Of a stretch of DNA of 54,036 bases, positions 18,508 to 40,429 are shown piece by piece. Numbering within the stretch: the stretch's first letter is position 1; the number at the start of each line of letters is the position of its first letter. The position numbers and the translations under genes are program-made. This DNA is from Acidobacteriaceae bacterium (GTDB lineage: Bacteria; Acidobacteriota; Terriglobia; Terriglobales; Acidobacteriaceae), in assembly GCA_027452245.1 (NCBI GenBank), contig DAIDGW010000247.1, positions 1 to 54,036 on the forward strand, in the 5' to 3' direction. The notes under the pieces were generated by a model. The model was not told where the DNA came from. It made no database searches and saw nothing but the letters and a program-made list of their open reading frames with translations.

Positions 18508-18573
18508 TTCCGCGCTGACCGCTCGTCGGTCCCCTCACGTCCTCGCCTGGGTTATTCGTAGACCTGCCTTTTG

Positions 18574-18601
18574 TCGGGAATCCCGATTCTCATGTCGGAA
18601 G
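18574..18601 (+). promoter_or_regulatory. Candidate activator site (UAS) upstream of the sigma-54 promoter
   Basis: TCGGGA-A-TCCCGA is a perfect inverted repeat at 18574-18586. A related but imperfect half-pattern, TCGGA, recurs at 18595 followed by GATCC. They lie about 60-80 bases upstream of the -24 element, the range where NtrC-type activators bind as dimers. The adjacent sigma-54 activator (24974-26329) is the natural candidate. Binding is inferred. Confidence 0.35.
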
Positions 18602-18651: not shown

Positions 18652-18667
18652 TGGCACAGCAAATGCA
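18652..18667 (+). promoter_or_regulatory. Sigma-54 (-24/-12) promoter of the redox operon
   Basis: TGGCACAGCAAATGCA matches the RpoN consensus TGGCACGNNNNTTGCW. The invariant GG and GC dinucleotides are separated by exactly 10 bases, and TGGCAC is complete. The predicted start, about 12 bases further on (near 18678), is about 40 bases ahead of the first operon gene. An NtrC-type activator gene is part of the same region, which makes a chance match less likely. Confidence 0.75.
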
Positions 18668-18716
18668 AATACATGAACAGCCATCGTTGCCCAGATGGCC
18701 GAAAGAGGCACCAATC

Positions 18717-19010
18717 ATGGCTGGAGAGAATTGGACATTCTGGTTCAACATGACCAACCTTGCACTCGGCATGATCACCGTGCTTGCTGTGCTTGTGGTC
18801 ATGGGCGCCGTGGGATGGGATGTCATCGCGGCGTGGCTGCGCAAACCTCAAGTGAACAATTTCGATATTGAAGCAGTTAAAGCGGACCTGCGTTCCATGT
18901 GGCAAAACGAGCCGCACACGCTGGCCGTGCCGGAGTTTGGCCTGACCATGGCAGACGGCGGCGAGAAGATCGCGCCTGCCAAGTCAAAAAAGAAATCCCC
19001 TCGGAAGTGA
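18717..19010 (+). CDS. Small single-span membrane protein, first gene of redox operon
   Basis: A 97-residue protein with one membrane helix (about residues 13-35, NLALGMITVLAVLVVMGAVGW) and a polar tail ending in a lysine-rich stretch (AKSKKKSPRK). ATG 18717 follows AGAGG at 8 bases; the longer frame would start before the predicted transcript is well under way. I recognise no family. Position as the first gene behind the sigma-54 promoter, with a 3-nt gap to the next gene, suggests a small accessory or assembly subunit of the membrane complex. The basic tail is probably cytoplasmic or binds a partner. Confidence 0.75.
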   Translation: MAGENWTFWFNMTNLALGMITVLAVLVVMGAVGWDVIAAWLRKPQVNNFDIEAVKADLRSMWQNEPHTLAVPEFGLTMADGGEKIAPAKSKKKSPRK

Positions 19011-19013
19011 CTT

Positions 19014-19859
19014 ATGGCTTGCCCGTTCTTGAAGGAAGGTCGAGCGCGATACTGCCATGCCGCTCCCATCCGAAAGCTGATTCTCGATGGGCCGGGGGCG
19101 ACCGACGGCGGCCGTTGTGCTTCCCCCGAGTACCGTACCTGTGACTTGGTCGCGAAGGATGCGGTGCAACCGGACCGTTGCCCGCACCTCGAGGAGATCC
19201 GGGTGCAATACTGCGGTGTCTCGCCAGTCACAAAGCTGGTTCCGTTTAGCGATTCGGAACTCTCAAGCTGCACCAGCAACAGCTACCGCTATTGTGATTC
19301 CTACCTGTTGTTGGCACGCCCGCACGCGATGAGCCCGGCAGCAAATCTCCTCTATGCGGCAAACCATTTCTGGCTCGATGCGGAGGCTTCTGGATTCTGC
19401 CACATTGGACTCGATGGATTCCTGGCAGACGTCGCAGGAGACGTGAGCGGCATCACCTTCGTCACGCTACACGGTACCCACTGCCCGGCGTTGGCGATCA
19501 CCGTCAATGGAGTGGAGTGGCCGATGAGCTTCCCTAATCCGCTCATGATTCAAAAAGTGAACAGCCGTGTCCGGCGCGATCCGGCCCGGCTCACGGCCGA
19601 TCCTTATGGATCAGGCTGGCTCTTCGAAGGATGGGAGATTCCCGGACAAACCAGAAACGGATTAATGACCGGACCGCAAGCAGCTGCATGGCAGGCCGAA
19701 GAGCGGGAGCGGCTCTCACGTGAGATCCACGAAGCTCACGCCCCAGCTTGCGATGGTGGCAGTCCCGTTCGAGGAGTGGCTCAGTTGTTGCCACGTGAAC
19801 ATCTCGTATGTGTGTTGCAGAAATTCTTTGCACAACGCGGCTGGTCGGTGGAGGCATGA
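19014..19859 (+). CDS. Protein with two 4-Cys modules and a degenerate GcvH-like domain
   Basis: A 281-residue soluble protein. Residues 3-43 and 56-94 are tandem copies of one module: CP[FH]LxExRxxYC...P[IV]xKL...CxSxxYRxCD, each with four Cys (3, 14, 35, 43 and 56, 67, 86, 94). Residues about 113-215 match the H-protein (GcvH) fold: NHFWLDAEASGFCHIGLDGF, DVSGITFVTLHG, and a closing DPYGSGWLFEGWEI. The lysine that carries lipoate in GcvH is not conserved; Glu 168 falls at that position and no nearby Lys replaces it. It is therefore probably not lipoylated and may be structural or regulatory. The Cys modules could bind zinc or iron-sulfur. It has no signal peptide and so is cytoplasmic. Confidence 0.75.
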   Translation: MACPFLKEGRARYCHAAPIRKLILDGPGATDGGRCASPEYRTCDLVAKDAVQPDRCPHLEEIRVQYCGVSPVTKLVPFSDSELSSCTSNSYRYCDSYLLLARPHAMSPAANLLYAANHFWLDAEASGFCHIGLDGFLADVAGDVSGITFVTLHGTHCPALAITVNGVEWPMSFPNPLMIQKVNSRVRRDPARLTADPYGSGWLFEGWEIPGQTRNGLMTGPQAAAWQAEERERLSREIHEAHAPACDGGSPVRGVAQLLPREHLVCVLQKFFAQRGWSVEA

Positions 19860-19861
19860 GT

Positions 19862-20446
19862 ATGAAACGAACCTTGCTCGGTTTCGCCATTGGCTTTGCG
19901 TTTACCCTCATGCTCGGCTGGATCGCGTTCCCACGCGCGCTTTACACCCACAAGCAGCAGCCATTCACGTTTCTGCACAAGGCGCATGCCGAAAAATCCG
20001 GCATTAGCGATTGCGGCGAATGCCATGCCTTCAAGGACGACGGCGAGTTTGCCGGCATTCCTGCCACTGAAAAATGTGCTTCATGCCATTCCGAACAATT
20101 AGGAGACACAAAAGCGGAAGCCATCTTGGTTTCCAACTACGTGAAGCCCGGGCATGAAACCCACTGGCTGGTGTATGCCCAGCAGCCGGCAAACGTCTGG
20201 TTCTCCCATGCAATTCACCTGAAACGCGCTGGCCTGAGCTGTCAACAATGTCATGGTTCTTACGGCGAAACAGATCAGGTGAAGGTTTATCAACTAAACC
20301 GAATCAGTGGATATAGCCGGGATATCTGGGGGCACTCGATGTCGCGATTCCGTCGCGCACCCGGCGATGGCATGAAGATGAGCGACTGTGAAACTTGCCA
20401 CAGCCGCCGTCACGTGGAAGTCGGTTGTCTTGGTTGCCACAAGTAG
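19862..20446 (+). CDS. Membrane-anchored pentahaem cytochrome c
   Basis: A 194-residue protein with an N-terminal membrane anchor (residues 4-24) followed by a periplasmic domain with five CXXCH motifs: 51-55, 72-76, 127-131, 176-180 and 189-193. Extra histidines (FLHKAHAEK, FSHAIHLK, GHETHW, GHSM) can supply distal ligands, as in cytochrome c3/c7-type proteins. ATG 19862 has GGAGG 7 bases upstream, and that site overlaps the end of the preceding gene. A five-haem, membrane-anchored cytochrome next to molybdopterin-like, FeS and NrfD subunits mirrors ActA of alternative complex III and, loosely, QrcA. It probably exchanges electrons between the complex and soluble periplasmic cytochromes. Confidence 0.92.
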   Translation: MKRTLLGFAIGFAFTLMLGWIAFPRALYTHKQQPFTFLHKAHAEKSGISDCGECHAFKDDGEFAGIPATEKCASCHSEQLGDTKAEAILVSNYVKPGHETHWLVYAQQPANVWFSHAIHLKRAGLSCQQCHGSYGETDQVKVYQLNRISGYSRDIWGHSMSRFRRAPGDGMKMSDCETCHSRRHVEVGCLGCHK

Positions 20447-20455
20447 AGGCGAACA

Positions 20456-22126
20456 ATGAAGTTCACACGAAGAGATCTATTGGCATGGAGCGCGGGCGCC
20501 GCCGCCGGTCTCATAGTCACTCCCATCCCATGGAAACTGCTGGACGACACTTCGATCTGGAGCCAGAACTGGCCATGGATCCCGCAACCCCCCCGAGGCC
20601 CGGTCGAGACCAAACGATCTTTCTGTACGCTCTGTCCGAAAGGATGCGCATTGCGCGTACGAATGGCGGCAGGATGGCCGGTGGGTATTTCCGGCGCCCC
20701 CGACAATCCCGCAACTCGCGGAGCGCTGTGCCCACTTGCTTACGGAGCCCACCAACTCAACTGGCATCCCGCCAGGCTGAAAGCCGTACGCCATCGCGGA
20801 AATACTTCGAGTTGGTTTGAGGCGAGCACGGCTTTCGCGAAAGCCTCCACAGAGGGTCCAGTTGTCATCATTGATGGATTTCCCGGGCGTTCGACTTCGC
20901 AACTGTTTCAGGATTTTGCAAGCAAGCGGGCCGCACAATATCGCGTCGTCTTGAGCCCAGAAATCCGTTCGTTACGGGCGTATGAGGCATGGGCTGGAGT
21001 TCCAGCCACAGCACTTGGATACGATCTGGAAAATGTCCGCACAATCGTGAGCTTTGGCGCACGAATGCTCGATGGCTGGGGATCCCCCGGTCGATTTTCG
21101 CATTTGTGGGCCGAGCAAGCCTCGGGCAAGACTGATCCCCAATTGCGGCTGATTCAAATCGAACCACAGCTTTCGCGTACTGCCTCGCGAGCCTGGAAGT
21201 GGATTTCGATTCGTCCTGAAACCGATTCCGCATTGGCAGCCGGCATCGCTCGTGTGCTTCTGGAACAACGTCTGGTAAGGGCTACAGGTCCGATGCCGCG
21301 ATTGAGCCTGACAGAAGCATCCAGCCTGACAGGGCTCGGCCCGGACGCAATTCATGATCTCGCGCAAGTATTAGTTGCGGAGAAACCCACGCTTGCGATT
21401 GCGGACGGCGACAACCCCGCAGTCGCTGCCTTGAACTTCGTCCTCGGCTCAATTGGAACTCCGGGCGGAATTATCCAAACAACCAAGAGTGCAATGCCAT
21501 ACCTTCCAGCCGAGAGCAACATCGACGCGGCGCGAGCAGTCTTGATTGACTCCAGCGTTCCCTGGGATTTCGATGTCCAAACTGAAGCTGAGGTCTTCCG
21601 CTTCGCCGCCTGGGATGGAGGATCGAGCAAAGCAGACTGGCTGCTGCCCGCTCCGGGATTTCTCGAAGAACTGACCGACATTCCTTCTGCTCCGGGTTCG
21701 TCCGTCCAGACCTATTCACTCACTGCCGCGCTAACCAGGCCGGCATTTGAGGTCCACACTGCCGCGCAATTCCTGCAAAATGTCGAACCTCAAATTGGTA
21801 AGCCAGAAGAAATCATTCACCAGCGCTGCGCACAGATATTCAAAGCGAGAACAGGATCGATCTACGCCGCAGACGTGGCCGCTGTTTCGAACTGTTCATC
21901 CCCGCAGAAACTCGAAGAGGCAATGTGGGCCGGCGCCATTTGGATGAACGAACCACTGTACAACTCCCGCCTCCTTCGCAGTCTGCGCGAGTGGCCAACG
22001 GAAGCTGGTTCTGCAACTCCCCAAAATAGCGAGAACACATGGTCGCCGGGGATTCTGCCGCCGCTCTCTTCAAAGCTTTATTGCGAATCGAATTTGTGTG
22101 AAAGCTCAGAAAGGAGAAACGCATGA
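20456..22126 (+). CDS. Short molybdopterin-oxidoreductase-like subunit (QrcB/ActB-N type)
   Basis: A 556-residue protein with a twin-arginine signal (FTRRDLLAWSAGAAAG) and the [4Fe-4S] binding pattern of the DMSO-reductase family: Cys 57, 60, 64 and 92 (FCTLCPKGC ... GALC). It then follows the family weakly (HPARLKAVRHRG, SWFEASTAFAKA, SIGTPGG). It is shorter than true formate dehydrogenases or nitrate reductases (700-1,000 residues), and I see no convincing Mo-ligating Cys/Sec/Ser context. QrcB and the N-terminal part of ActB are homologous catalytic-subunit folds that lack molybdenum, and this subunit fits that type best. Export with the FeS partner through the Tat pathway is expected. It sits 9 nt after the cytochrome and overlaps the next gene by 4 nt. 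Confidence 0.8.
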   Translation: MKFTRRDLLAWSAGAAAGLIVTPIPWKLLDDTSIWSQNWPWIPQPPRGPVETKRSFCTLCPKGCALRVRMAAGWPVGISGAPDNPATRGALCPLAYGAHQLNWHPARLKAVRHRGNTSSWFEASTAFAKASTEGPVVIIDGFPGRSTSQLFQDFASKRAAQYRVVLSPEIRSLRAYEAWAGVPATALGYDLENVRTIVSFGARMLDGWGSPGRFSHLWAEQASGKTDPQLRLIQIEPQLSRTASRAWKWISIRPETDSALAAGIARVLLEQRLVRATGPMPRLSLTEASSLTGLGPDAIHDLAQVLVAEKPTLAIADGDNPAVAALNFVLGSIGTPGGIIQTTKSAMPYLPAESNIDAARAVLIDSSVPWDFDVQTEAEVFRFAAWDGGSSKADWLLPAPGFLEELTDIPSAPGSSVQTYSLTAALTRPAFEVHTAAQFLQNVEPQIGKPEEIIHQRCAQIFKARTGSIYAADVAAVSNCSSPQKLEEAMWAGAIWMNEPLYNSRLLRSLREWPTEAGSATPQNSENTWSPGILPPLSSKLYCESNLCESSERRNA

Positions 22127-22866
22127 GCGCCCGCTACGGCATGGTGATCGATCTGGATCGCTGCACCGGTTGTGGCGCTTGCATGATGGCATGCGCCGCC
22201 GAGAACAACGTTCCCGCATTGCCGAAGGCGACGAATCGCACCGGCCTTACCCCAATGTTGGTTCGCAAGGTGTCGAACGGAAGGAACGGAGTGGCACAAC
22301 GCGAGGTGTTCATTCCGATCCTGTGCATGCACTGTGAACAGCACACGCCCTGTGTGAGCGTCTGCCCGCAGCAGGCGGTCGAAGTCGATCGCGCTACCGG
22401 GATCGTGATGCAGATGCCGCAGCGCTGCCTCGGTTGCCGCTACTGCATGACCGCATGCCCCTACCATGCCCGTTACTTCAACTGGTGGGACCCTGCGTGG
22501 CCGGCGGGAACGGAAAAAAGTCTCAATCCCGGGGTGGCTGTGCGCATGCGAGGCGTCGTCGAGAAGTGCAATATGTGTCATGCTCGCTTGCACGCGGCGC
22601 AAGAAAAAGCTGCCGCGGCAGGGAAGCGCGAAATCGATCCTGCCGACTATGTTCCCGCTTGCGTCGAAGCTTGCCCCACCGGCGCTATTCGCTTCGGCAA
22701 CCTCGCGGACCCAAACGACCCCGTAACTCAAGAGTCGCATTCGCCGGAGGCATTTCGCTTCCTGGCCCGGCTGGGCACCGAACCCAAGGTTTACTACAAA
22801 TCGAAGGAAGCATGGGTTAGAGCGTTGGCCGAAGCCGCATCCAGCACGGAGGTGCAACATGGCTAG
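22123..22866 (+). CDS. Four-cluster ferredoxin-like electron-transfer subunit
   Basis: A 247-residue protein of the HybA/NrfC/QrcC/PhsB type. Four Cys groups are visible: CTGCGACMMAC, CMHCEQHTPCVSVCP, CLGCRYCMTACP and CNMCHARL...CVEACP. These give 16 Cys, enough for four cubane clusters. It has no own signal and probably travels with the Tat-exported partner. It would wire the molybdopterin-like subunit to the NrfD quinone subunit. The start overlaps the upstream stop (ATGA), with AAGGAGA at 8 bases; its end overlaps the NrfD gene by 8 nt, so expression is tightly coupled. Confidence 0.93.
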   Translation: MSARYGMVIDLDRCTGCGACMMACAAENNVPALPKATNRTGLTPMLVRKVSNGRNGVAQREVFIPILCMHCEQHTPCVSVCPQQAVEVDRATGIVMQMPQRCLGCRYCMTACPYHARYFNWWDPAWPAGTEKSLNPGVAVRMRGVVEKCNMCHARLHAAQEKAAAAGKREIDPADYVPACVEACPTGAIRFGNLADPNDPVTQESHSPEAFRFLARLGTEPKVYYKSKEAWVRALAEAASSTEVQHG

Positions 22867-24136
22867 CCTGACCATGACCGAGACCCATGTGACCGACAGC
22901 CGCTGGATTGCGCGAGGAGTCGAGCGGATTTCACTGTCGCGCTTTCTCCTTTGCCTGGCTCCCTGGTTTGTACTTCTGGTGATCGGTGTCTACGCCGCAG
23001 GCCTATGTCTCTTCTATGGCTTGAACCAGACCAACATGGATAACCGGTTCGCTTTCGGCCTGTGGATCTTCCTCGATCTTGGCATCATTGCTCTGGGCGC
23101 AGGAGCGTTCTTCACCGGATTCCTGGTTTACATCCTGAAGCGTAGTGAACTGAAGCCTATTCTGAACACGGCTGTTGTTGTGGGCTTCATCTGCTACAGC
23201 GGCGCGGTCTCAATCCTCATGATCGACGTTGGCCAGCCGCTCCGCGCCTGGTTTACGTTCTGGCATCCCAACACGCATTCGATGCTCACGGAAGTTACGT
23301 TCTGCATTTCATGCTACCTGCTGGTGTTGAGCCTTGAGTACATTCCAATTCTGCTGCGCAACCGGCAACTCCGAAAGCTGCCGTCATTCCTGATTTTTGA
23401 GCATCAACTTCATAAACTTGTTCCCGTCCTGGCCGCAGTCGGCACCTTGCTCTCATTCTTCCATCAGGGATCGCTTGGCGGGCTCTACGGAGTTCTGCGC
23501 GGGCGTCCATTTGCCTTCCGCGACGGGATCTTCATCTGGCCTTCTACGTTCTTCCTATTTATCTTGTCGGCGATCGCCTCCGGGCCCAGCTTCCTGATGC
23601 TGGTGACTGCGACGGTAGAAAAGGTCACCGGCAAGCGGCTCGTACCACCGGACCTCTTCCGCCGTCTGGGTTTGATTTCCGGGGTGCTGCTCGCCGTCTA
23701 CATTGCGGCCAAGTCCATCGACACCCTGATCTGGATGGATTTCACCTCTCCAGCCATGGGATTTGCTCCCTGGCTGTCCTACATGCACAAGCCGTTCGGC
23801 ACGCCGATTCTGTTCGCTGAGATTGTGCTCTTTGGATTAATTCCAGCTTTCCTGCTGACCTACCGCCGCACGGCCGCAAAGCGCGGCTGGCTGCTTAGCG
23901 CCGCAGCAATGGCTTGCATGGGAATTCTGCTGAATCGGTTCGTCCTGACTGTGCAGACCTTGGCCTTGCCGACGCTGTCATTTGACGAGTTTCTGACCTA
24001 CACGCCGAGCTGGCAGGAAGTAGCGAGCTTCGCTGGAGTCATCGCGTACGGTGTAATCGTGTATTCCTTGTCCTACCGCTATCTGCCTCTCTTTCCAGCG
24101 CAGAAAGGAGACGAAACCCATGTTTCCGGGCGTTGA
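22859..24136 (+). CDS. NrfD/PsrC-family quinone-interacting membrane subunit
   Basis: A 425-residue polytopic protein with about ten hydrophobic segments. The NrfD character is seen in GLNQTNMDNRFAFGLWIFLDLGI, the repeated small-residue helices, and the family pattern LEYIPILLRNRQLRK. The start has GGAGGT 7 bases upstream. NrfD/QrcD/ActC proteins bind menaquinone near the periplasmic side and, in some complexes, move protons. Here it would be the membrane anchor of the complex encoded by the preceding genes. It overlaps the next gene by 17 nt. Confidence 0.93.
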   Translation: MASLTMTETHVTDSRWIARGVERISLSRFLLCLAPWFVLLVIGVYAAGLCLFYGLNQTNMDNRFAFGLWIFLDLGIIALGAGAFFTGFLVYILKRSELKPILNTAVVVGFICYSGAVSILMIDVGQPLRAWFTFWHPNTHSMLTEVTFCISCYLLVLSLEYIPILLRNRQLRKLPSFLIFEHQLHKLVPVLAAVGTLLSFFHQGSLGGLYGVLRGRPFAFRDGIFIWPSTFFLFILSAIASGPSFLMLVTATVEKVTGKRLVPPDLFRRLGLISGVLLAVYIAAKSIDTLIWMDFTSPAMGFAPWLSYMHKPFGTPILFAEIVLFGLIPAFLLTYRRTAAKRGWLLSAAAMACMGILLNRFVLTVQTLALPTLSFDEFLTYTPSWQEVASFAGVIAYGVIVYSLSYRYLPLFPAQKGDETHVSGR

Positions 24137-24944
24137 TGGATTTCATTGGACTGCTGGCCACATTATCTTCCTAGGTCTTTTCTTTGCCGTGGCCGCAACC
24201 ATTCTTACAACAGTTGCTTCTGCCGCATGGCGGAGCGCACGCGACATACGGGAAGATCGAGCGGCAGGCCTATGCTGGAAATCTGATTTCGCTGAATTGC
24301 CAGTTCACGACCGTCGCTGCCGTCACGAACTCGCCGGCCGCGTCATCTCGCGAACCTGCGACAATGCATTTAATTGCGGAAGTTGCGGCAAGTACGCCCA
24401 GTTTGCCGTATTGCCTGCCCGGGGCGATAGCAACCCATCTGGCCTGAATTATCCTGACGATCGTCTGTATTCCCGCGACCACACTTGGGTAAAAGTTGAG
24501 CCCGGCGGCACAGTCTCCATCGGGTTGGATGATTTTGCGCAGCACGTGCTCGGAACTCCAGATTCAATCACCTTGCCCGAAATTGGCAGCGAAATTGAAC
24601 TCAACGGCACGGCCTGGCAGATGAAAAAGCACAAACAGAAAATCAGGGTCCGAGCCCCTATCGAAGGAACTGTCATTGCCAAGGGAACCCAACAGGACGA
24701 TTGGATCCTGAAAATTCAACCGCGCCGTGATGTCAAGGATCCTCTCACCACCCGTCATCTGTTGCGCGGCCCTGAAGTGAGAGGCTGGATCGTGCGCGAG
24801 ATGGAGCGGCTGCAACTGCAATTACAGCCACTCAACACTGCCCCCACTTTGGCGGACGGCGGCACTCTCATGCCAAATTTAATGGATTCTCTACCGCATG
24901 CGGATTGGGAAACAGTACTGGCCGACACATTTCTTGAGGCCTGA
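24120..24944 (+). CDS. Membrane-anchored GcvH-like protein with Cys motif
   Basis: A 274-residue protein. One membrane helix (residues 12-36) is followed by a Cys motif, C67-x12-C80-x5-C86-x2-C89 (RRCRHELAGRVISRTCDNAF onward), then a GcvH-like domain (about 110-205): LYSRDHTWVKVEPGGTVSIG, DSITLPEIGSEIE, APIEGTVIAKG. Counting back from the conserved Pro, Lys 172 falls exactly where GcvH carries lipoate, so lipoylation is possible, although the surrounding QMKKHKQK is far more basic than the usual ESVK. The classical glycine-cleavage genes are absent. A role as swinging-arm carrier or sulfur/thiol carrier for the complex, as proposed for LbpA proteins of the sHdr pathway, is conceivable but unproven. 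Start has AGGAG 11 bases upstream. Confidence 0.8.
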   Translation: MFPGVDGFHWTAGHIIFLGLFFAVAATILTTVASAAWRSARDIREDRAAGLCWKSDFAELPVHDRRCRHELAGRVISRTCDNAFNCGSCGKYAQFAVLPARGDSNPSGLNYPDDRLYSRDHTWVKVEPGGTVSIGLDDFAQHVLGTPDSITLPEIGSEIELNGTAWQMKKHKQKIRVRAPIEGTVIAKGTQQDDWILKIQPRRDVKDPLTTRHLLRGPEVRGWIVREMERLQLQLQPLNTAPTLADGGTLMPNLMDSLPHADWETVLADTFLEA

Positions 24945-24973: not shown

Positions 24974-26329
24974 TTAGTGCGAGATCTCATACCGCTTCAG
25001 CTTGTCGTAAAGTGTTGATCGGTCGATACCCAGTGCCGCCGAGGCTTCTTTCACATTTCCGTGCTTGCGCTCCAATGCAGTGACGATGGCACGGCGCTCC
25101 AATTCTTCAAGCGGCACATCGGGAACCTGCCAATCCTGCTGCGTACTTTCGCTTCTCTGTAACCACGAAAAGTCCTGCTCCTCGAGCATCCCATTTCGGC
25201 AGGTCACGATGGCCCGCTCGATTACATTCTCCAGTTCACGAACATTGCCCGGCCACTCGTAAGCAATTAGCAATTTCAATGCCGCCGCCGTAATCCCGGA
25301 GATTTCCTTCCCCAACTCCGAAGATATACGTTGCACGAAGTGCTCGGCCAGGAGCGGAATGTCTTCTCGGCGTTCCCGAAGCGCCGGCAGCCGAATCTCA
25401 ATGACATTCAGCCGGTAATAGAGGTCTTCGCGGAATCTCCCCTGTTTGACCTCCTCGCCAAGGTCCTTATTCGTTGCGGCGATCACGCGAACGTCCACCT
25501 CGACTTCTTGCGTTCCTCCAACTCGATAAAATCGCCGCTCCTGCAGCACTCGCAGCAGATCGGCTTGCAGCTTGGCCGAGATATCGCCAATTTCGTCGAG
25601 AAAGATCGTGCCTCCGTCGGCCACTTCGAACTTGCCTTTCGTTTGCCCGCCCGCTCCAGTGAATGCGCCCTTTTCGTAGCCGAACAATTCACTTTCCAGC
25701 AGCGTTTCAGTGAGTGCCGCGCAATTCATCACCACGAACGGCTTGCCGGCACGGCTTCCGGAGAAGTGAACCGCCCGCGCCACCAATTCTTTACCCGTCC
25801 CGCTCTCGCCGCGAATCAGTACCGTGCTGCGCAGGCTGGCAACATCCTGCGTGAGCGCCAGGATCTCTTCCATTCGCGGATTCTTCGTGATGATGTCGTG
25901 GTGGCGATACTGCCGTGTCAATTTCTTTCGCAAAATAGCATTTTCGCTCTGCAGTTTCTTAAGCTTCAGAATCCGCGCCACCAGCATGGAAATCTCCTGA
26001 GGATTGCAGGGCTTCACGATGTATTCCTGTGCGCCTTCCTTCATGGCTTGAATGGCAGTATCGACGGTGGCATAGGCCGTGATGATAATGACCGAGGCCT
26101 CTGGTCGAACGCGGTGAATCTCCATCATGGTCTCGATACCGTCCATCCCTCCGGGCATTTTTAAATCCACGAAACAGATTGCGTAGTCAGAAGATTTCGC
26201 CAGTTCGACGGCCTTCTGGCCGCTGGGAGCAGTATCGACTCTATATCCATCTTCCCTCAGCCACGCGGCCATCGACTCGCACATCACGTCTTCATCATCC
26301 ACCACCAAAATCGGCCAATTCTTCTTCAT
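24974..26329 (-). CDS. NtrC-type sigma-54-dependent response regulator
   Basis: A 451-residue activator. The receiver domain has acidic pocket D11/D12 (VVDDEDV), phospho-acceptor D55 (CFVDLKMPG) and the conserved Lys (YIVKPC). The AAA+ domain has Walker A GESGTGKE, the sigma-54 contact loop GAFTGA, Walker B GGTIFLDEIGD, and the arginine-finger region REDLYYRLNV. A Fis-type helix-turn-helix (KEASAALGIDRSTLYDKLKR) ends it. ATG 26329 follows GGAGGAG; the longer frame is spurious. It overlaps the archaemetzincin gene by 4 nt and is third in an operon headed by its likely cognate kinase. Its probable target is the sigma-54 promoter at 18652. Confidence 0.95.
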   Translation of the reverse strand: MKKNWPILVVDDEDVMCESMAAWLREDGYRVDTAPSGQKAVELAKSSDYAICFVDLKMPGGMDGIETMMEIHRVRPEASVIIITAYATVDTAIQAMKEGAQEYIVKPCNPQEISMLVARILKLKKLQSENAILRKKLTRQYRHHDIITKNPRMEEILALTQDVASLRSTVLIRGESGTGKELVARAVHFSGSRAGKPFVVMNCAALTETLLESELFGYEKGAFTGAGGQTKGKFEVADGGTIFLDEIGDISAKLQADLLRVLQERRFYRVGGTQEVEVDVRVIAATNKDLGEEVKQGRFREDLYYRLNVIEIRLPALRERREDIPLLAEHFVQRISSELGKEISGITAAALKLLIAYEWPGNVRELENVIERAIVTCRNGMLEEQDFSWLQRSESTQQDWQVPDVPLEELERRAIVTALERKHGNVKEASAALGIDRSTLYDKLKRYEISH

Positions 26330-26877
26330 ACTCCTCCCACCAGCGACGCAACTTGCTCCGCCAACTGCAATCCACACGGGGAACAGTATTGCTGTGATTT
26401 GCTGTCCACTAGCCCAATGTGCGTGGCCAGGCTCATGACACACTTCTGATCCCGACAATGAACCAGTCCGAAGGTATGCCCCATCTCATGAAGCACTTCT
26501 TTCACGATGCGCTCTCGCAACAGGTCGTCCTCGGCTGGAAGTCCATAGAACTCCTGATGCAGCCTGCACAGCGACACCACGGCGATCCGGCCATTGAGTT
26601 GCGCCTGGCCAAACAGGAAACTGAGCATTGGGATTGCCAGGTCAACGTCCGTCACCCCCAGGATCCTCGTCGCATCGCCGGGAGTATCTTGTGCCAGCGT
26701 CTTCATGATCTCCACCGATTGATACTGCCCGCGTCTCGCATCGTAGGCCCGCTCCGGTATTGCTACTGGGGCCAAGCGGCGGATCGGCAGCGGAAACCAC
26801 TCGCTCACTGCATTTTCGATCCATGCCCATGTGTTTTCCGGCACACTCCCGACCGGCACCAGATACAGGGCACTCAC
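26326..26877 (-). CDS. Archaemetzincin-type zinc metalloprotease
   Basis: A 183-residue protein with the complete archaemetzincin signature: zinc site HEMGHTFGLVH (His 130, Glu 131, His 134, His 140), then C141-x4-C146-x-M, and a distal C165-x2-C168 (YCSPC) forming the second structural zinc site. There is no signal peptide, so it is cytoplasmic. AmzA proteins are compact metzincins of largely unknown physiological role. The gene is translationally coupled on both sides (4-nt overlaps), between a sensor kinase and its response regulator. That placement suggests a regulatory proteolysis step or a partner in the same signalling pathway. Confidence 0.92.
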   Translation of the reverse strand: MSALYLVPVGSVPENTWAWIENAVSEWFPLPIRRLAPVAIPERAYDARRGQYQSVEIMKTLAQDTPGDATRILGVTDVDLAIPMLSFLFGQAQLNGRIAVVSLCRLHQEFYGLPAEDDLLRERIVKEVLHEMGHTFGLVHCRDQKCVMSLATHIGLVDSKSQQYCSPCGLQLAEQVASLVGGV

Positions 26878-28514
26878 ACCGCCCCTACCTGCACTTCCTT
26901 GATCCCCGCTTCATTCTTGCTGGACTTCAAAGGAAGCGTCACGATGAACTTCGTTCCCTGGTTGCGGACGCTCGTCACTTCGACCTCTCCTTCGTGCGCT
27001 TTGACGATTCCGTAGAGCACCGCCAGCCCCAGGCCAACACCTTTGCCGTCGGCCTTGGTCGTGAAGAACGGATCAAATATCTTCGACAAGTTTTCCGGCG
27101 CGATGCCTTCTCCCGTGTCTTCAACGATGAGTTCGACTTCATCGCCGCCAGGAAGCAACCCAGTTTGAATAGTCAGATTCCCTCCGCCGCGCGACTGCAT
27201 CGCCTGCGCGCCATTCAGCACCAGGTTCAGGATGACCTGCTGAATCTGCGACGCATCGCACTCTAATGGGGGCAGGTTCTCCTGCAGCTTCAACGCCACC
27301 TGCGCATTAATCATCTTCAGCTTGTGATCCGCCAGCCCCAACGTCGTTTGAACCAACTTGTTGAGGTCCGCCGGTGCGCGCTGTGGTTTGGAACGCCGCG
27401 AAAATGCCAGCAGATCTGAGACGATCCGCCCAACCCGTGCTGTTTCCGTCGAGATCAGTCCCAGATACTTGCGGAACTCGGCTTCGCGCCCGGGAGGGAA
27501 TTCCCCGCTGGCCATCAGCCGTTCCAGCAGCATGGAGAGATTTAACACTCCCGATATAGGATTGTTGATCTCATGCGCCACGCTCGCCGCTAATTGACCC
27601 AGAGAGGCTAATCGATCGGATTGAACCAGCTTCTTTTGCGCCGCCTGCAGCTGCTGCGTACGTTCCTCCACTTTGCTTTCCAGGCTCTCCTGCATGCCGT
27701 TTAATTCGTCGATGGCAAGCTTCAGGCGCTCGCGCATCCGGTTGAAAGAATCAACTAATTCGTCCAATTCGTAACTGCTGCGAGGGACTTCGATACGCCG
27801 GTCTAACTCCATCGCACTGACGGCTTTCGTCCCTTTGATCAGTTGTTGAATGGGCGTGGCAACAAACCGGCGGGTGAAAAGGATGACGAAGGCCGCCCCG
27901 ATAAAAACTTCAAATGCCGTCCAGACAATAGTCTGAAGTGTGATCGTTCGGGTTTGTTTCTGAACCGGATCAAGACTGAGTGCAACATCCACAATCCCGA
28001 GAACTTTTGTCTTTGCGTTATGCGCATGGCAACTGGCGTTGCTGCACGAAGGCTCGTTATATATCGGCGTCACGATGCTGATGGTTTTCGTTCCGCTTGG
28101 CGAAGTGGCATAGCGAACGCGCGATGCTTGCGCCGGCTTATCGCGGATCGGTCCCTCGCTGTGGCAACTGATACACACCTTGTTCGACAGGCTGAGAGCA
28201 TTGCCGATCGGTTGTTCGCGCGAGTCCGTCGAAAACACCAGATGCCCTTCGCGATTAAACATGCGAATCCGGTCGATGCCTTGCTTGTCGGCGATGGTCT
28301 GCATGATCTGCGACGCTGCCTTCCGGTCGTCATCCAGCATGGCATGCCACGTCGCCGCCGTGATGCTCCGGGACAGTTGATCTGCCCCCAGAATCATGGT
28401 TTCCAACAATTGCTTTTGTTCGATTCGGAAATTCAGATATCCACTGATCGTGCTGATCGCAACGATCAGAACAGTGAGAGAAAGGATCAGTTTGGGGCCA
28501 AGTTTTCGAGGCAT
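26874..28514 (-). CDS. Sensor histidine kinase with haem-binding periplasmic domain
   Basis: A 546-residue kinase. The order is: TM1 (about 8-25); a periplasmic sensor of roughly 170 residues; TM2 (about 195-215); a HAMP linker ([11 protein letters not shown]...); a coiled coil ([24 protein letters not shown]); the phospho-acceptor H box ([12 protein letters not shown]); N box ([13 protein letters not shown]); G boxes ([19 protein letters not shown]). The sensor carries CISCH (114-118) and a CSNASCH element (157-163, a CX4CH), so one and perhaps two c-type haems are expected. It probably reads redox state or a small gas. ATG 28514 has AGGG at 7 bases. It heads the kinase-archaemetzincin-activator operon. 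Confidence 0.93.
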
Positions 28515-28807
28515 GTGGACCCTGAATGCCTGTGCGCGCACTCGCAACTCTTAGGCGCGCTAGAAAACTCCTCAAATTAAAGCTACTTGGCTCTTCTCCT
28601 TCCCTCTGTGATTCTCAGTCCTTCACCGAGTGATCTTGGTCACGTAAGAAGTTGGTGCCGCATCAATAGCTTAAGTGCCTTCTCAGTAGCTATGTCGTCG
28701 CTTTCAAAATAACTTGGTGTCATTGCCAATTCCTAAGGTGTTCGCATTAGCAACCGCCGATTTGTCATCATCAGTCTTCGGGAATAGCCTATCGAGAGGA
28801 GTGACTT

Positions 28808-31246
28808 ATGAGCATGATCGAAACGCCTGCCCCAGCCGCAACCCTCGACCTTAGCCCCTACGCTCCAACCCATTCCAGCATCAACGAGACGCTTCTCAGT
28901 TCCGACGAACTGCGCAAAACCCAGATCTATTGGCATGCCTGCAATTACCTGAGCCTGGGAATGATTTATCTGCAAGACAATCCCTTGCTTACCCAGCCCC
29001 TGCGGCCCGAGCACATCAAGAATCGATTGCTCGGCCACTGGGGAACCAGTCCCGGACTCTCGTTCATCTACGTTCACCTCAATCGGCTTATTAAAAAATA
29101 TGACCTCGACATGATCTTCCTCGCGGGACCGGGGCACGGGGCACCCGGCGTCCTCGGCCCGACCTATCTCGAAGGCACCTACTCCGAGATCTATCCGGAA
29201 AAGAGCCTCGATCCCGAAGGCCTCCGCGAATTTTTCAAGCAGTTTTCTTTCCCCGGTGGAATTGGCAGTCACTGTACGCCCGAAACTCCTGGTTCAATTC
29301 ACGAAGGCGGGGAGCTGGGATACGTGCTCTCGCACGCTTGCGGCGCGGCCTTCGATAATCCTGAACTGATTGTTGCTGCCGTTGTGGGCGATGGCGAGTC
29401 CGAAACCGGTCCGCTGGCCACATCCTGGAACATCAATAAATTTCTCAATCCGGCTCGCGATGGCGCCGTCCTGCCCATCCTCCATTTGAACGGCTATAAG
29501 ATCAACAATCCCACAATTCCGGCGCGCATCTCCCATGAAGAGCTCGAACAATTATTCCGCGGCTACGGATGGACGCCCTACTTCGTTGAGGGCTCCGACA
29601 CCAATTCGATGCATCAGGCCATGGCGGCTACAGTCGAGCATTGCGTTCTGGAAATCCGCGCCCATCAGGATTCCGCGCGCAAGCACGGATCGCGTGAACG
29701 TCCCCGCTGGCCCATGATCGTCCTGCGATCCCCCAAGGGTTGGACCGCTCCCCGCAAAATCGAAGGCCATTTCCTCGAGGGATTCTGGCGTGCCCACCAG
29801 GTTCCTCTGCCAAACGTCAAAAGTGATCCCGAGCAATTCCGCATTCTGGAAGACTGGATGCGCTCACAAAAGCCGGACGCTCTATTCGACGGAGAAGGGC
29901 GGCCGGCACCCATTTTCCGGGAACTTGCGCCCACCGGCACTCGGCGCATGAGCGCCAATCCTCACGCCAATGGCGGACGCCTGAAGAAGGCATTACGTCT
30001 CTCCGATTTTCGCAACTTCGCTTATGCCTTCGATAAGCCTGGCAAGAACATGACCGAAAACACGGTTCCGCTGGGCCAGTTCCTCGCAGATGTGATGAAA
30101 CTCAATCCCCACAATTTCAGAGTTTTCGGTCCTGACGAAACCGCTTCCAACAAACTGGACGCCGTCTACAAAGTAAGTAAGAAAATTTGGATGGAGGAGT
30201 TTTTCCCTGAAGATGCGGACGGCAGCGAGATCGCCACCGATGGCCGTGTCATCGAAATGCTCAGCGAACACACCCTTGAGGGAATGCTCGAAGGCTATCT
30301 TCTGACCGGACGCCACGGGTTTCTGTCTACCTACGAAGCCTTCGTGCACATCATTGATTCCATGTTCAACCAATTCGCCAAGTGGCTGGAAATCAGCCGC
30401 CATCTCTCATGGCGAAACTCCATTGCCTCGCTGAATCTCTTAATCACTTCCACCGTGTGGCGGCAGGATCACAACGGCTTCACTCATCAGGATCCGGGCT
30501 TCCTCGACGTGGTGCTGAACAAGAGCGCCAGCGTCACCCGCATCTATCTTCCGCCCGATGTGAATTGTCTCTTGTCCGTGGCCGATCACTGCCTGCGCAG
30601 CCAGAACTATGTGAACGTGATCGTCTGTGACAAGCAAAAACATCTGCAATATCTCACCATGGATAAAGCCATCGTCCATTGCACCAAGGGGATTGGTATC
30701 TGGGATTGGGCCAGCAACGACGAATCAGGTGAACCGGATGTCGTTATGGCTTCGGCTGGAGATATACCCACACAAGAGGCCTTAGCCGCAGTAGCGCTTC
30801 TTCGAAAGGAATTTCCGGATCTGAAGATTCGCTTCATCAACGTTGTGGATCTTTTCAAGCTGCAGCCGAGTACGGAACATCCGCACGGCCTGCCGGACCG
30901 TGACTTCGACTCCTTGTTCACGGTCGACAAGCCCGTGATGTTTAACTTTCACGGCTATCCGCAACTCATTCACCGCCTGGCCTATCGCCGCACGAATCAC
31001 AGCAATATCCACGTTCGTGGCTACAAGGAGCAAGGCAACATCAACACGCCTCTGGAACTTGCCATCAACAACAATACCGACCGCTTCAGCCTGGCGATGG
31101 ACGTCGTGGACCGCGTCCCGCGCTTGCAGAAAATCGGCGGCCATGCGAAAGAACGATTCCTGAACCAGCAGATCGAGTGCAAGGATTACGCCCATCAGTT
31201 CGGCATCGACAAGCCTGATGCCGCCAACTGGGTTTGGCCGTATTAA
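28808..31246 (+). CDS. xfp: Phosphoketolase (Xu5P/F6P)
   Basis: An 812-residue thiamine-diphosphate enzyme splitting xylulose-5-phosphate (and often fructose-6-phosphate) to acetyl phosphate plus glyceraldehyde-3-phosphate or erythrose-4-phosphate. Family marks are [47 protein letters not shown], the ThDP/Mg motif [14 protein letters not shown], and later [22 protein letters not shown] and [13 protein letters not shown]. The length is typical. ATG 28808 follows GAGGAG. Acetyl phosphate made here can be turned into acetate and ATP by the convergent acetate kinase gene. The preceding gap (28515-28807) shows no clear promoter to me. Confidence 0.97.
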
Positions 31247-31489: not shown

Positions 31490-32734
31490 TCACGACGGAT
31501 GTGGCACGCCCATAATCACCCGCACCGTATCGCGCGCGATCAGGAGTTCTTCGTCCGTCGGAATTGCATAGGCAAGCAGCTTTGAATCTTCTGTCGAGAT
31601 GACCGACTCCCGCCCGATTGCTTCCCGATTCCTCTTTTCATCAACCCGCAAACCCGCCCACTCCATTCCTTCGCAGATTCGCGTCCGAATATCCGGCGAA
31701 TTCTCTCCGATGCCGCCGGTGAAAACCACAGCATCGGCGCCGCCCATCGCGGCCAGATATGCGCCAACATATTTCTTTGCGCGATAGCAGAAGATCTCCA
31801 CCGCCAGCCGCACGCGTCGATCGTCATGTTCCTTCATTTCGGCTTGCAGTTCGCGCATGTCGTTCGTCAGTCCAGAAACTCCCAGCAATCCGGATTGCGT
31901 GTTCAGCAGGGAATCGACCTCCGACGCAGACAGCCCCTCTTTCCGTGCAATGAATCCGACGATAGCCGGATCGAGGTCGCCCGATCGAGTTCCCATGACC
32001 AGCCCTTCCAGCGGAGTCATTCCCATCGACGTATCCACAGGCGATCCTGCCTGGATCGCCGCCGCCGAACAGCCATTTCCCAGATGCAAGGTGATGATAT
32101 TGGTCTGTTCCCGTGACAGTCCCCGAATCGCCCGGTAACGAAACGCCACATAACGATGCGAGGTGCCATGAAACCCATAGCGCCGGATGCGATAACGGCG
32201 ATAAAGATGATACGGAATCGCGTACAAATAGGCCTGTGCCGGAATGGAGTGATGGAAAGATGTATCAAAAACCGCGACCTGCGGCACATCCTTGCCAAGC
32301 AATTCCTGTGCCGCAACAATTCCCTTGACATTGTTTGGATTGTGCAGCGGCGCGAGGTCAATGCAATCTTCGATACCCTTGAGCACTCGATCATCAATGC
32401 GCGCCGACTCGCTGAACAACTCTCCGCCGTGAACTACGCGATGTCCTACCGCATGCAGATCGGCGGTGCTCCTGATCTCCGTAACTCCTGAGCGATCCGA
32501 AACGATGTAGCGAACCAGGTAATCCAATGCCGCGGTCACATCCCGCACCGGAGCTGTAAATGTCTGGATTGCATCGTCGCGCCGCCGGAAATGAATAATA
32601 GCCTCTCCGCCAATGCCCTCCACTTCGCCGCGGCAGATGCGATCGTCAGTATCCCGCTTGATCTTCTCCAGATCGGTGGCAATGATCTGAAACTTGAAGC
32701 TCGAGCTTCCGGAGTTCAACACCAGCACGTTCAT
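31490..32734 (-). CDS. ackA: Acetate kinase
   Basis: A 414-residue ASKHA-fold enzyme interconverting acetyl phosphate + ADP and acetate + ATP. The adenosine/phosphate motif [14 protein letters not shown] opens the protein. Both acetokinase signatures are present: [11 protein letters not shown] region with HGTSHRYV, and the nucleotide loops [15 protein letters not shown] and [13 protein letters not shown]. It is slightly longer than the E. coli enzyme (400). Together with phosphoketolase it forms a short ATP-yielding sugar-phosphate route. It is convergent with xfp, so the two are not co-transcribed. No phosphotransacetylase gene is in the window. Confidence 0.96.
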
Positions 32735-37456: not shown

Positions 37457-39211
37457 GTGACCGCAGTCACAGACCCGCCCATTCGCCGCGATGGAAGATC
37501 ACAGAGGAAGTGTGACGCATTTTTTGCGTTAACTGACTCGCTTCACATCTCGACTCGGCGGGTATCTGTGCGTTTTCCCAAGGTCACTACACTGCGTAGC
37601 TTTTTACAGCTCGTTTTCTTTCTCCTGTTTCTTTTCCTCCTGCTTCGCACCGAGTTTCGCGGTACTTTTGCCGCTGCTGCCGGCGATCTCCGCCTTCGCT
37701 ATCCCGTCTCCTTCTTTTTCCAGCTCGATCCCCTGATCGCACTCTCGAACGCCCTGGCGACGCGCGCCCTCTATCGTGGACTTCTCTGGACTCTCGTCAT
37801 CCTGATCCCGACCTTCCTTCTCGGACGATTCTTCTGTGGCTGGATATGTCCGCTCGGATCCCTGAATCATTTCTTCGGCAGCCTCAACTCCGAAGAGAAG
37901 CGCGGTAAGCAACTGATCGAGTCCAACCGCTACAAACGCTGGCAGACCACCAAGTACTACCTGCTGATCATCGGGGCCTGCGCCGCATTGTTTGGCGCAG
38001 GCATCGCCGGATGGCTCGATCCATTCTCCTTGTTAGTGCGCTCCCTCAGCCTCTCCATCCTCCCCGCCACCAGTTACGGCTTGCGCGCGTTCCTGGGCGT
38101 ACTCGCCCACAGCCCCTTCGCCTGGCTTCAGATCGCCGGCAATCTGCTCCACTACGTTCTCGGTTCACTGTTTCTCAGCCTCAAACAGCCCTACTTCCGC
38201 GAAGGAGTCTGGCTCGGACTGATTTTCATCGCGGTCCTCTCTGTGAACCTCCGCATCACCCGCTTCTGGTGCCGCGCCCTGTGTCCCTTGGGAGCATTGC
38301 TCGGAATGGCCTCCCGCTGGTCGCTGATTGGCCTGGTCAGAAATAAAGAACATTGCAACGACTGCAATCAGTGCCTCTTGCGATGCCAGGGTGGAGACGA
38401 TCCGGTAGGCGGCCGCGGCTGGCGTCAGCCCGAATGTCACCTGTGCATGAATTGTGTCGATCAATGCCCGGAGCATGCTCTGACCTTTAAATTCTTTCCC
38501 CGTCAGCCGCCGGCATCGGCCAATCTGCAACGGCGAAAAGTGCTCACCGCTGTCGCCACCGGCGCCGCCTGCATTCCCCTGTTTCGCAGCACTCCCGGTT
38601 TCGCCGCCGAGCGCAACGAGCGGCTGCTCCGTCCTCCCGGAGCACTCGCTGAAGACGAATTCCTGGCGCGCTGCATTCATTGTGGCGAGTGCATGAAGGT
38701 ATGCCCCAACAATGCCCTGCATCCCAGTTGGACGGAGGCCGGGCTCGAAGGCTTGTGGACGCCCGTCATGGTTCCGCGCATCGGTTACTGCGAGCCCAGC
38801 TGCGTGCTTTGTTCACAGGTATGTCCAACCGGTGCAATCTGGGAGATCAATGCCTCCCAAAAAGGCTGGACCGTCGACATCTCCAGGTCCGCCAAGCCCG
38901 TTCGCTTGGGCACTGCATTCTATGATCGCGGTCGCTGCCTGCCCTGGGCTATGGCCACCGACTGTATCGTGTGTGAAGAGTGGTGCCCGACATCCCCTAA
39001 AGCCGTCTTCCTCACCCCTGCCTCTGTGCTCGATGCTGCGGGAAACGTCAAGCAGGTCAAGCAGCCCAACATCGATCCCTCTCGCTGCGTCGGCTGCGGC
39101 GCCTGCGAATATGCCTGCCCGGTGCAGGATCGTCCCGCCGTCTACATCACCAGCGTCGGCGAGAGCCGGTCTCCAACCAACCAGATCCTCCTGAGCCGGA
39201 AAAAAGCATGA
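37457..39211 (+). CDS. Fused NapH-like membrane / NapG-like polyferredoxin
   Basis: A 584-residue fusion. The first half is NapH/YccM-like: about five membrane helices with the paired CGWICPLGSL (residue 127 onward) and CRALCPLGALLG motifs, then two [4Fe-4S] motifs (CNDCNQCLLRC, CHLCMNCVDQCP). At residue 359 an internal twin-arginine-like signal (QRRKVLTAVATGAACIP) begins, followed by a NapG/MauM-like part with four more Cys groups (CIHCGECMKVCP, CVLCSQVCP, CIVCEEWCP, CVGCGACEYACP). It should pass electrons from quinol or the cytoplasm to a periplasmic acceptor. The GTG start at 37457 is uncertain; GTG 37568, just before the first helix, is an alternative. A DUF362 gene follows. Confidence 0.88.
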   Translation: MTAVTDPPIRRDGRSQRKCDAFFALTDSLHISTRRVSVRFPKVTTLRSFLQLVFFLLFLFLLLRTEFRGTFAAAAGDLRLRYPVSFFFQLDPLIALSNALATRALYRGLLWTLVILIPTFLLGRFFCGWICPLGSLNHFFGSLNSEEKRGKQLIESNRYKRWQTTKYYLLIIGACAALFGAGIAGWLDPFSLLVRSLSLSILPATSYGLRAFLGVLAHSPFAWLQIAGNLLHYVLGSLFLSLKQPYFREGVWLGLIFIAVLSVNLRITRFWCRALCPLGALLGMASRWSLIGLVRNKEHCNDCNQCLLRCQGGDDPVGGRGWRQPECHLCMNCVDQCPEHALTFKFFPRQPPASANLQRRKVLTAVATGAACIPLFRSTPGFAAERNERLLRPPGALAEDEFLARCIHCGECMKVCPNNALHPSWTEAGLEGLWTPVMVPRIGYCEPSCVLCSQVCPTGAIWEINASQKGWTVDISRSAKPVRLGTAFYDRGRCLPWAMATDCIVCEEWCPTSPKAVFLTPASVLDAAGNVKQVKQPNIDPSRCVGCGACEYACPVQDRPAVYITSVGESRSPTNQILLSRKKA

Positions 39212-40295: not shown

Positions 40296-40313
40296 GATCT
40301 GGATAATCCGTAA

Positions 40314-40345
40314 GCACTATCGCCGTATAGGCGGTGCGGGCTTTT
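40314..40345 (+). terminator. Intrinsic terminator after the DUF362 gene
   Basis: GCAC-TAT-CGCC pairs with GGCG-GTGC (40330-40337) around a GTATA loop, with the TAT bulged, and TTTT follows at 40342-40345. It lies 19 bases after the stop codon. It also argues that the next gene starts at 40430 rather than at an upstream ATG inside the hairpin. Confidence 0.5.
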
Positions 40346-40429
40346 CGAGGGTTTACCTTTCTTTACTCGCCATTCTCATTTCACTTAGCATCTTTTCAAA
40401 GTAACTCTCGGGGACGAGGACACCTGGGA

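Follow-up and report, generated by a model that had tools for sequence, protein, structure and literature searches.

A 54,036-nucleotide stretch of DNA from a soil bacterium of the Acidobacteriaceae (GenBank assembly GCA_027452245.1, contig DAIDGW010000247.1, positions 1 to 54,036; the whole stretch is called the window below) contains seven closely packed genes, orf1 to orf7, that probably encode an electrogenic cytochrome c:menaquinone oxidoreductase of the Qrc type, to which a cytoplasmic module has been added. Judged by their sequences, the four central proteins are a Qrc-like core (QrcA–QrcD), though not all of them are members by the curated cut-offs; the three other proteins accompany this core in several phyla. 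Qrc is described mainly from sulfate-reducing bacteria, and in Nitratidesulfovibrio (Desulfovibrio) vulgaris (hereafter D. vulgaris) it functions as a four-subunit complex of Desulfobacterota (PMC13059093; papers are cited by PMC number for the accessible part of their text). The seven genes are the following:

orf1, 18717..19010, plus strand: small protein with one transmembrane helix and a TMADGG tail predicted to be cytoplasmic
orf2, 19014..19859, plus strand: two four-cysteine repeats, an H-protein fold and DGG; no transmembrane helix or signal seen
orf3, 19856..20446, plus strand: QrcA-like membrane-anchored pentahaem cytochrome c
orf4, 20456..22126, plus strand: QrcB-like relative of molybdopterin enzymes, short (556 amino acids), with a twin-arginine start
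orf5, 22123..22866, plus strand: QrcC-like protein with 16 conserved cysteines, room for four Fe-S clusters
orf6, 22859..24136, plus strand: QrcD-like membrane subunit of the NrfD family
orf7, 24120..24944, plus strand: one transmembrane helix followed by a four-cysteine motif, an H-protein fold and LADGG; predicted cytoplasmic

The successive spacings (+3, -4, +9, -4, -8 and -17 nucleotides, all genes on the plus strand) bear out the packing, with overlaps or gaps of at most 9 nucleotides, described in an earlier note on this DNA. The start of orf3 was set at ATG 19856, which overlaps the stop of orf2, instead of the 19808 given by the open reading frame (ORF) finder, and that of orf1 at ATG 18717 instead of the finder's TTG 18651, because the latter falls at a sigma-54-type site (18652–18667). 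Pfam identifies orf4 as Molybdop_Fe4S4, orf6 as NrfD, and both orf2 and orf7 as GCV_H; orf1 has no match in Pfam or NCBIfam.

The Qrc-like core

Comparison with the NCBIfam models relates each of the four central proteins to one Qrc subunit. The orf6 protein scores 561.9 bits with the QrcD model NF041784 (cut-off 570, 8 bits short), and the next-best families are far behind (HmcC, 119 bits; HybB, 110 bits). The orf3 protein matches the QrcA model NF041781 with 209 bits (cut-off 180), orf4 the QrcB model NF041783 with 229 bits (cut-off 440), and orf5 the QrcC model NF041782 with 328 bits (cut-off 400). The other loci tested behave similarly: QrcA exceeds its cut-off in three of three, QrcD in two of three (582 and 589 bits in L118 and L110; 561 bits, 9 short, in L122), and QrcB and QrcC fall below theirs in three of three and one of one, respectively. 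A sequence search of the PDB found no Qrc entry at E <= 1.

The cofactor-binding residues are strongly conserved. The five CXXCH motifs of QrcA are kept in 57 of 57 aligned sequences, the window included, and the 16 cysteines of QrcC in 71–72 of 72. In QrcB, the twin-arginine residues R5 and R6 are present in 64 and 63 of 65 sequences (the Pfam TAT_signal match is below its cut-off), and the Fe-S cysteines C57, C60, C64 and C92, kept in 63–64 of 65, align with the cysteines that thiosulfate reductase and formate dehydrogenase have in their N-terminal Fe-S domain. At position 167 of QrcB, in what we take to be the molybdenum (Mo) ligand region, the alignment has no conserved Mo ligand (S in 20, G in 11, T in 6, A in 6 and Q in 5 of the 65 sequences). 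A functional Mo enzyme was rejected, since the Mo-ligand stretch appears not to be conserved, and the functional Mo site that the earlier note envisaged as a possible refutation was not seen in the sequences of the homologues. The length of QrcB varies from 556 amino acids in the window up to 764 in other loci.

In QrcD, 17 of the 18 checked D. vulgaris residues of the quinone pocket and proton path are identical in the window (compared at a constant offset of +3; the 18 are a part of those listed in PMC8076601), and the checked columns that were printed are kept in 76–78 of 78 sequences, window included, except E164. Variants of D. vulgaris QrcD at D70, Y110, S138 and Y150 show no significant electron transfer to menaquinone (PMC13059093), and all four residues are retained in the window. 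In QrcC, Y107 (72 of 72 sequences) and Y114 (68 of 72) are candidates for Y113 of the same paper. The NCBIfam matches and the retained QrcD residues, including these four, are the reason for the Qrc-type reading.

The earlier note had proposed an oxidoreductase of a new type. This no longer applies to the core, since it is Qrc-like by NCBIfam and the same gene order is found in the metagenome-assembled genome (MAG) CO124 (L118), an acidobacterium for which qrcABCD has already been reported (PMC10564751). The separate genes for the Fe-S and Mo-like proteins, which the note contrasted with ActB, are in fact the Qrc arrangement and thus no argument against Qrc. As for the periplasm-facing menaquinone module then suggested, a periplasmic head is supported; the GcvH-like proteins, by contrast, are predicted to lie in the cytoplasm.

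Co-occurrence and distribution of the seven genes

A scan of named genomes with the QrcD alignment (two peptide patterns) gave 117 relatives, of which the best 80 were kept as loci; the counts thus leave out 37 relatives, may miss distant Qrc proteins, count near-identical loci separately, and are corrected for contig ends (loci 'with room'). Of the 51 named loci with room for the whole set, 48 contain all seven genes, arranged in the same order, and a chance neighbourhood was rejected on this ground. Individually, orf7 is present in 77/77 loci with room, QrcC in 75/75, QrcB in 62/62, QrcA in 60/61, orf2 in 54/55 and orf1 in 49/52. The co-occurrence check proposed in the earlier note therefore comes out in its favour: the GcvH-like genes do belong with those of the complex, and their absence from most orthologous loci, which would have told against this, was not seen. 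The 80 loci include Acidobacteriota (among them Sulfotelmatobacter, Bryobacterales/Solibacter, Thermoanaerobaculia and Holophagales), Bacteroidota, Ignavibacteria, Kryptoniota, KSB1 and Eisenbacteria. Among recurrent neighbours only a regulatory trio, described below, is frequent; other reported clusters are seen in 5 of 80 loci.

A second sample comprised 396 genomes of the same phylum, not chosen by QrcD. Here QrcD with at least 59% identity is found in five genomes (own included), and orf7 above 220 bits in the same five, adjacent each time; the next orf7 matches have 131 and 83 bits. Three of the 80 loci (L129, L139 and L143) are contigs of genomes of this sample (G242, G230 and G029), so that the two tests overlap. 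Both halves of orf2 are found in the same five genomes plus one more, G262; in G242, orf2 lies on a separate contig (L198) together with orf1, QrcA and QrcB. The distribution is patchy, since no other genome of the bacterium's own family among the 396 has a strong QrcD. In a quick tree, the window QrcD falls among rows of Sulfotelmatobacter and Acidobacteriaceae, and pairwise distances of the other six proteins track those of QrcD (r 0.74–0.83).

Mobile elements were searched as well. A plasmid-borne relative was rejected: the 17 plasmid records that match QrcD do so at only 22.9–32.3% identity and, where annotated, are hybB or nrfD, and plasmid matches to QrcC reach at most 41% identity among the 60 listed out of 317 records. 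In the viral collection, no relative was confirmed.

The added proteins

The proteins of orf1, orf2 and orf7 share a near-invariant DGG motif, and the TMADGG of orf1 is present in 53 of 53 sequences. Lysine and arginine are richer after than before the transmembrane helix in all 53 sequences of orf1 and all 76 of orf7, and all three proteins are predicted to face the cytoplasm. A comparison of predicted folds, which barely covers the cysteine-rich parts, finds the H-protein fold in orf2 and orf7. The column of the lipoyl lysine in orf7 (172) contains G in 30, E in 12, D in 9, R in 7, N in 7 and K in 7 of 76 sequences, with K in the window, and orf2 has E at this place by our own count; the H-protein-like domains of both proteins thus appear, on these alignments, to be without a conserved lipoyl site. 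It is the shared order in 48 of 51 loci, the coincidence in the same five of 396 genomes, the correlated distances, the charge bias and the DGG motif that argue for an added module.

A stand-alone copy of the orf2 cysteine-rich domain is found in another acidobacterial genome (L197:7037-9113; G330:C508). It is followed by two ORFs which, from their motifs, we take to resemble subunits C and B of heterodisulfide reductase.

The regulatory module and promoter-like sites

The unit extends beyond the seven genes, upstream to a palindrome at 18573 and downstream to 28547, where a regulatory module occupies the minus strand:

18573..18587, plus strand: palindrome GTCGGGAATCCCGAT, at which the neighbouring sigma-54 regulator may bind
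18652..18667, plus strand: sigma-54-type -24/-12 site TGGCACAGCAAATGCA, score 14.5 of 16 on our own scale
24974..26329, minus strand: NtrC-type sigma-54 response regulator; the ORF extends to 26458, the conserved part beginning near ATG 26329
26326..26877, minus strand: archaemetzincin-family metalloprotease, HExxHxxGLxHC kept; 159 bits with NF033823 (cut-off 145)
26874..28547, minus strand: sensor histidine kinase carrying two haem-type motifs, CXXCH and CX4CH

Where at least 4.2 kb of sequence follows orf7 (50 loci), and counting a gene anywhere in the locus, the regulator is found in 37, the archaemetzincin in 34 and the kinase in 35; where at least 1.6 kb follows (61 loci), the regulator is present in 41. 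The three genes run opposite to the operon in 44/45, 39/39 and 39/39 cases, respectively, and lie within 6 kb after orf7 in 39/45, 33/39 and 34/39, the rest being mostly upstream. Among the rows listed, the regulator is 61–86% identical, other phyla included. In 38 kinase sequences, each residue of CX4CH is kept in at least 95% and each residue of CXXCH in at least 70%. An archaemetzincin with an intact metal-binding motif accompanies the kinase and regulator.

Upstream regions of orf1 (54 loci and the window) were scored against what we take to be the -24/-12 consensus of sigma-54. Of the 55 regions, 23 have a site scoring at least 14, compared with 2 of the 323 internal-gene controls and 10 of the 1080 random ones; at a score of at least 13, the counts are 34/55, 17/323 and 44/1080. 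The scanned intervals had been redefined after a first scan over 400 nucleotides per region with poorer gene starts, which at score 13 gave 22/53 regions against 6/156 internal-gene and 94/1040 random controls. Dyad enumeration yielded a single motif, GTCGG-N5-CCGAC, in 7 of 54 upstream regions and in no control stretch. With up to two mismatches allowed, its extension, the palindrome consensus GTCGGGANTCCCGAC, matches 14 of the 55 upstream regions and 17 of 2200 random stretches; with up to three, the figures are 33 of 55 and 87 of 2200. The regions that served to find the palindrome are also those in which it was counted, so this enrichment is not an independent test. Both kinds of site count in favour of the proposed reading. 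The exact sequence GTCGGGANTCCCGAY has two copies in the 6.2 Mb genome, and the only other one is in L194 (G000:C109:44551-44565).

Related NrfD-type operons

In 26 genomes (own included; our own reading of the coordinate lists), a GcvH-like gene has a more distant gene of the NrfD family, about 30% identical, as a neighbour at no more than about 5 kb. Contig C236 of the window's own genome (L066:3093-8638) has consecutive genes for an Fe-S protein, a HybB-like NrfD protein, a haem kinase, a sigma-54 regulator and an archaemetzincin; a GcvH-like gene lies upstream of these, on the opposite strand. L067 and L074 contain all six gene kinds, and L069 has a similar set in which no archaemetzincin match was seen. 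It therefore seems that the cassette accompanies NrfD-type modules of more than one sort.

Proposed mechanism and alternatives

The most plausible scheme is that a periplasmic c-type cytochrome would donate electrons to the pentahaem QrcA, from which they would pass through QrcB (with cysteines for one [4Fe-4S] cluster and no Mo ligand) to the clusters of QrcC. Menaquinone would be reduced at the periplasmic-side pocket of QrcD, with protons drawn from the cytoplasm through this subunit. The products of orf1, orf2 and orf7 may assemble on the cytoplasmic side of QrcD, anchored by the transmembrane helices of orf1 and orf7; in this assembly, the H-protein-like domains would probably serve as a scaffold, gate or assembly aid. 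The haem-binding kinase might sense the redox state outside the cell and switch on the operon through the sigma-54 regulator, acting at the palindrome near 18580.

Genes for possible electron donors were checked in 41 host genomes, drafts of unstated completeness (the hosts of 40 of the 80 loci and the bacterium's own genome). The key gene of sulfate reduction, dsrA, exceeds its cut-off in 8 of them, the own genome having only a 30-bit match below it. Some match to PF00374 ([NiFe] hydrogenase) is found in 39/41, one above 300 bits (our own threshold) in 18/41, an FdhN-type formate dehydrogenase in 12/41 (own included), and neither of the last two in 16/41. No single donor thus stands out. The qrcABCD genes of MAG CO124 are reported to be transcribed under anoxia (PMC10564751). 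The own genome also encodes, at G000:C215:36274-39264, a formate dehydrogenase whose reading frame contains one TGA, possibly for selenocysteine, beside an NrfD_2 match (40265-40987).

Several observations weigh against the proposed reading. QrcA is the only core protein of the window above its curated cut-off, QrcB and QrcC being well below; no donor gene is universal across the hosts; the D. vulgaris channel residue E164 is replaced by K in 58, R in 19 and Q in 1 of 78 sequences; the regulatory genes were not found in 13–16 of 50 loci; and the co-variation with QrcD would be expected from shared descent as well. Besides, G262 keeps orf2, kinase and regulator tail to tail (L196:9361-13727, C199); the 18 kb examined contain neither a qrc gene nor orf7, the genome has no strong QrcD, and of the archaemetzincin only a weak match over 41 residues is left. 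This locus may reflect a deletion or orf2 working alone, so that orf2 need not work only with Qrc.

Some of these points fit a complex that runs in reverse, oxidizing menaquinol and feeding a periplasmic cytochrome, as in alternative complex III, for example towards terminal or extracellular acceptors: the hosts tested have no universal periplasmic donor, E164 is lost, and Qrc is able to act reversibly in syntrophy (PMC6303296). We nevertheless regard this direction as unlikely, given that QrcD scores 562 bits with its own model and at most 119 with other NrfD families, that QrcD retains those checked residues on which quinone reduction depends, and that there is no ActB-like fusion. A somewhat better, if still minor, chance is given to orf1, orf2 and orf7 being not subunits but factors of assembly or export quality control, such as Fe-S or Tat proofreading helpers for QrcB and QrcC. 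That all three are predicted to be cytoplasmic and two are cysteine-rich, that QrcB begins with a twin-arginine motif, and that orf2 occurs without qrc genes would suit such helpers; two of the three are, however, membrane-anchored, and a GcvH-like companion is also present at the HybA/HybB-like operons, where no QrcB match was seen (L066–L077). The H-protein fold also differs from those of the Tat chaperones known to us. An ordinary four-gene Qrc with unrelated neighbours has a precedent in D. vulgaris, where four subunits suffice for function (PMC13059093), yet it is scarcely credible here, being refuted for the loci seen by the seven-gene order recurring across several phyla and by the same-genome co-occurrence among the 396 genomes.

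The spread of a Qrc-like core over several phyla, in hosts mostly without dsrA, with constant extra proteins and often a regulator of its own, makes other uses of a Qrc-type redox loop testable. H-protein folds without a conserved lipoyl site would be given a definite setting, on the cytoplasmic side of a respiratory complex of the NrfD type. For studies of the proton path the clade is a ready-made comparison, because the proposed channel residue E164 is changed in nearly all of it. Speculatively, and we consider this rather doubtful, the pseudo-H-protein assembly might be an integral gate or a redox or thiol sensor at the proton-entry side of QrcD, making the system a membrane-spanning, regulated branch of Qrc outside sulfate respiration; together with the HybA/HybB-like sisters, it could then represent a general class in which NrfD-type quinone modules are accompanied by lipoyl-less H-proteins and share a haem-kinase/sigma-54/archaemetzincin cassette.

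Other genes of the window

A phosphoketolase gene (28808-31246, plus strand) and an acetate kinase gene (31490-32734, minus strand) adjoin the kinase gene of the regulatory module; among the locus rows listed, there is no phosphoketolase match on the QrcD strand. Further downstream, the protein encoded by 37457-39211 combines Fer4_5 with several Fer4 domains and may be a membrane polyferredoxin.

Comparison with known systems

The core resembles QrcABCD of D. vulgaris in its multihaem QrcA and its Mo-like QrcB apparently without a Mo ligand (PMC6303296, PMC13059093), in the QrcC cysteines for four clusters, in 17 of the 18 checked QrcD residues and in the separate B and C genes. It differs in the three added genes and the sigma-54/haem-kinase module, in the replacement of E164 of QrcD by K or R, and in its hosts, 33 of 41 of which have no dsrA over the cut-off. 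According to the accessible parts of the Qrc papers, D. vulgaris QrcB is free of redox cofactors; the window QrcB is shorter and keeps four Fe-S cysteines, so that, in this comparison by description, a retained cluster would be a difference. That classical qrc operons are without GcvH-like genes is judged from the four-gene operon of the papers, not from Desulfobacterota genomes.

In the accessible text of PMC6303296 and PMC8076601, QrcD is placed only in Deltaproteobacteria, and qrcABCD has been reported in one acidobacterium, MAG CO124 (Ca. Sulfopaludibacter; PMC10564751). The locus of the latter, L118, contains all seven genes in the same order plus the kinase, archaemetzincin and regulator; as far as the accessible part of that paper goes, it names only qrcABCD, and GcvH and lipoate are absent from its main text. 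The literature searched, which lacks most subscription journals and all preprints, contains no further paper on a Qrc complex in Acidobacteriota and none linking GcvH with NrfD or archaemetzincin with a histidine kinase; among the matches listed, there is no paper on qrcABCD in Ignavibacteria or Bacteroidota. Thus, the Qrc-like core is already known, and for the cytoplasmic module with its frequent regulator no description was found in this literature.

Alternative complex III (ActA–F) likewise combines a multihaem cytochrome, a Mo-like part, an Fe-S part and an NrfD-family subunit; unlike it, the operon has no ActB fusion, orf4 and orf5 being separate, and a single NrfD-type gene. With GcvH and lipoate-binding proteins (LbpA), orf2 and orf7 share the H-protein fold, but their lipoyl lysine is not conserved, and they have extra cysteine-rich domains, the DGG motif and, in orf7, a transmembrane helix. 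Finally, the acidobacterial HybA/HybB-like operon of the same genome (C236) resembles the seven-gene operon in its kinds of regulatory genes and in a GcvH-like gene close by; it differs in having no QrcA or QrcB match (L066) and in an NrfD part that is only about 30% identical.

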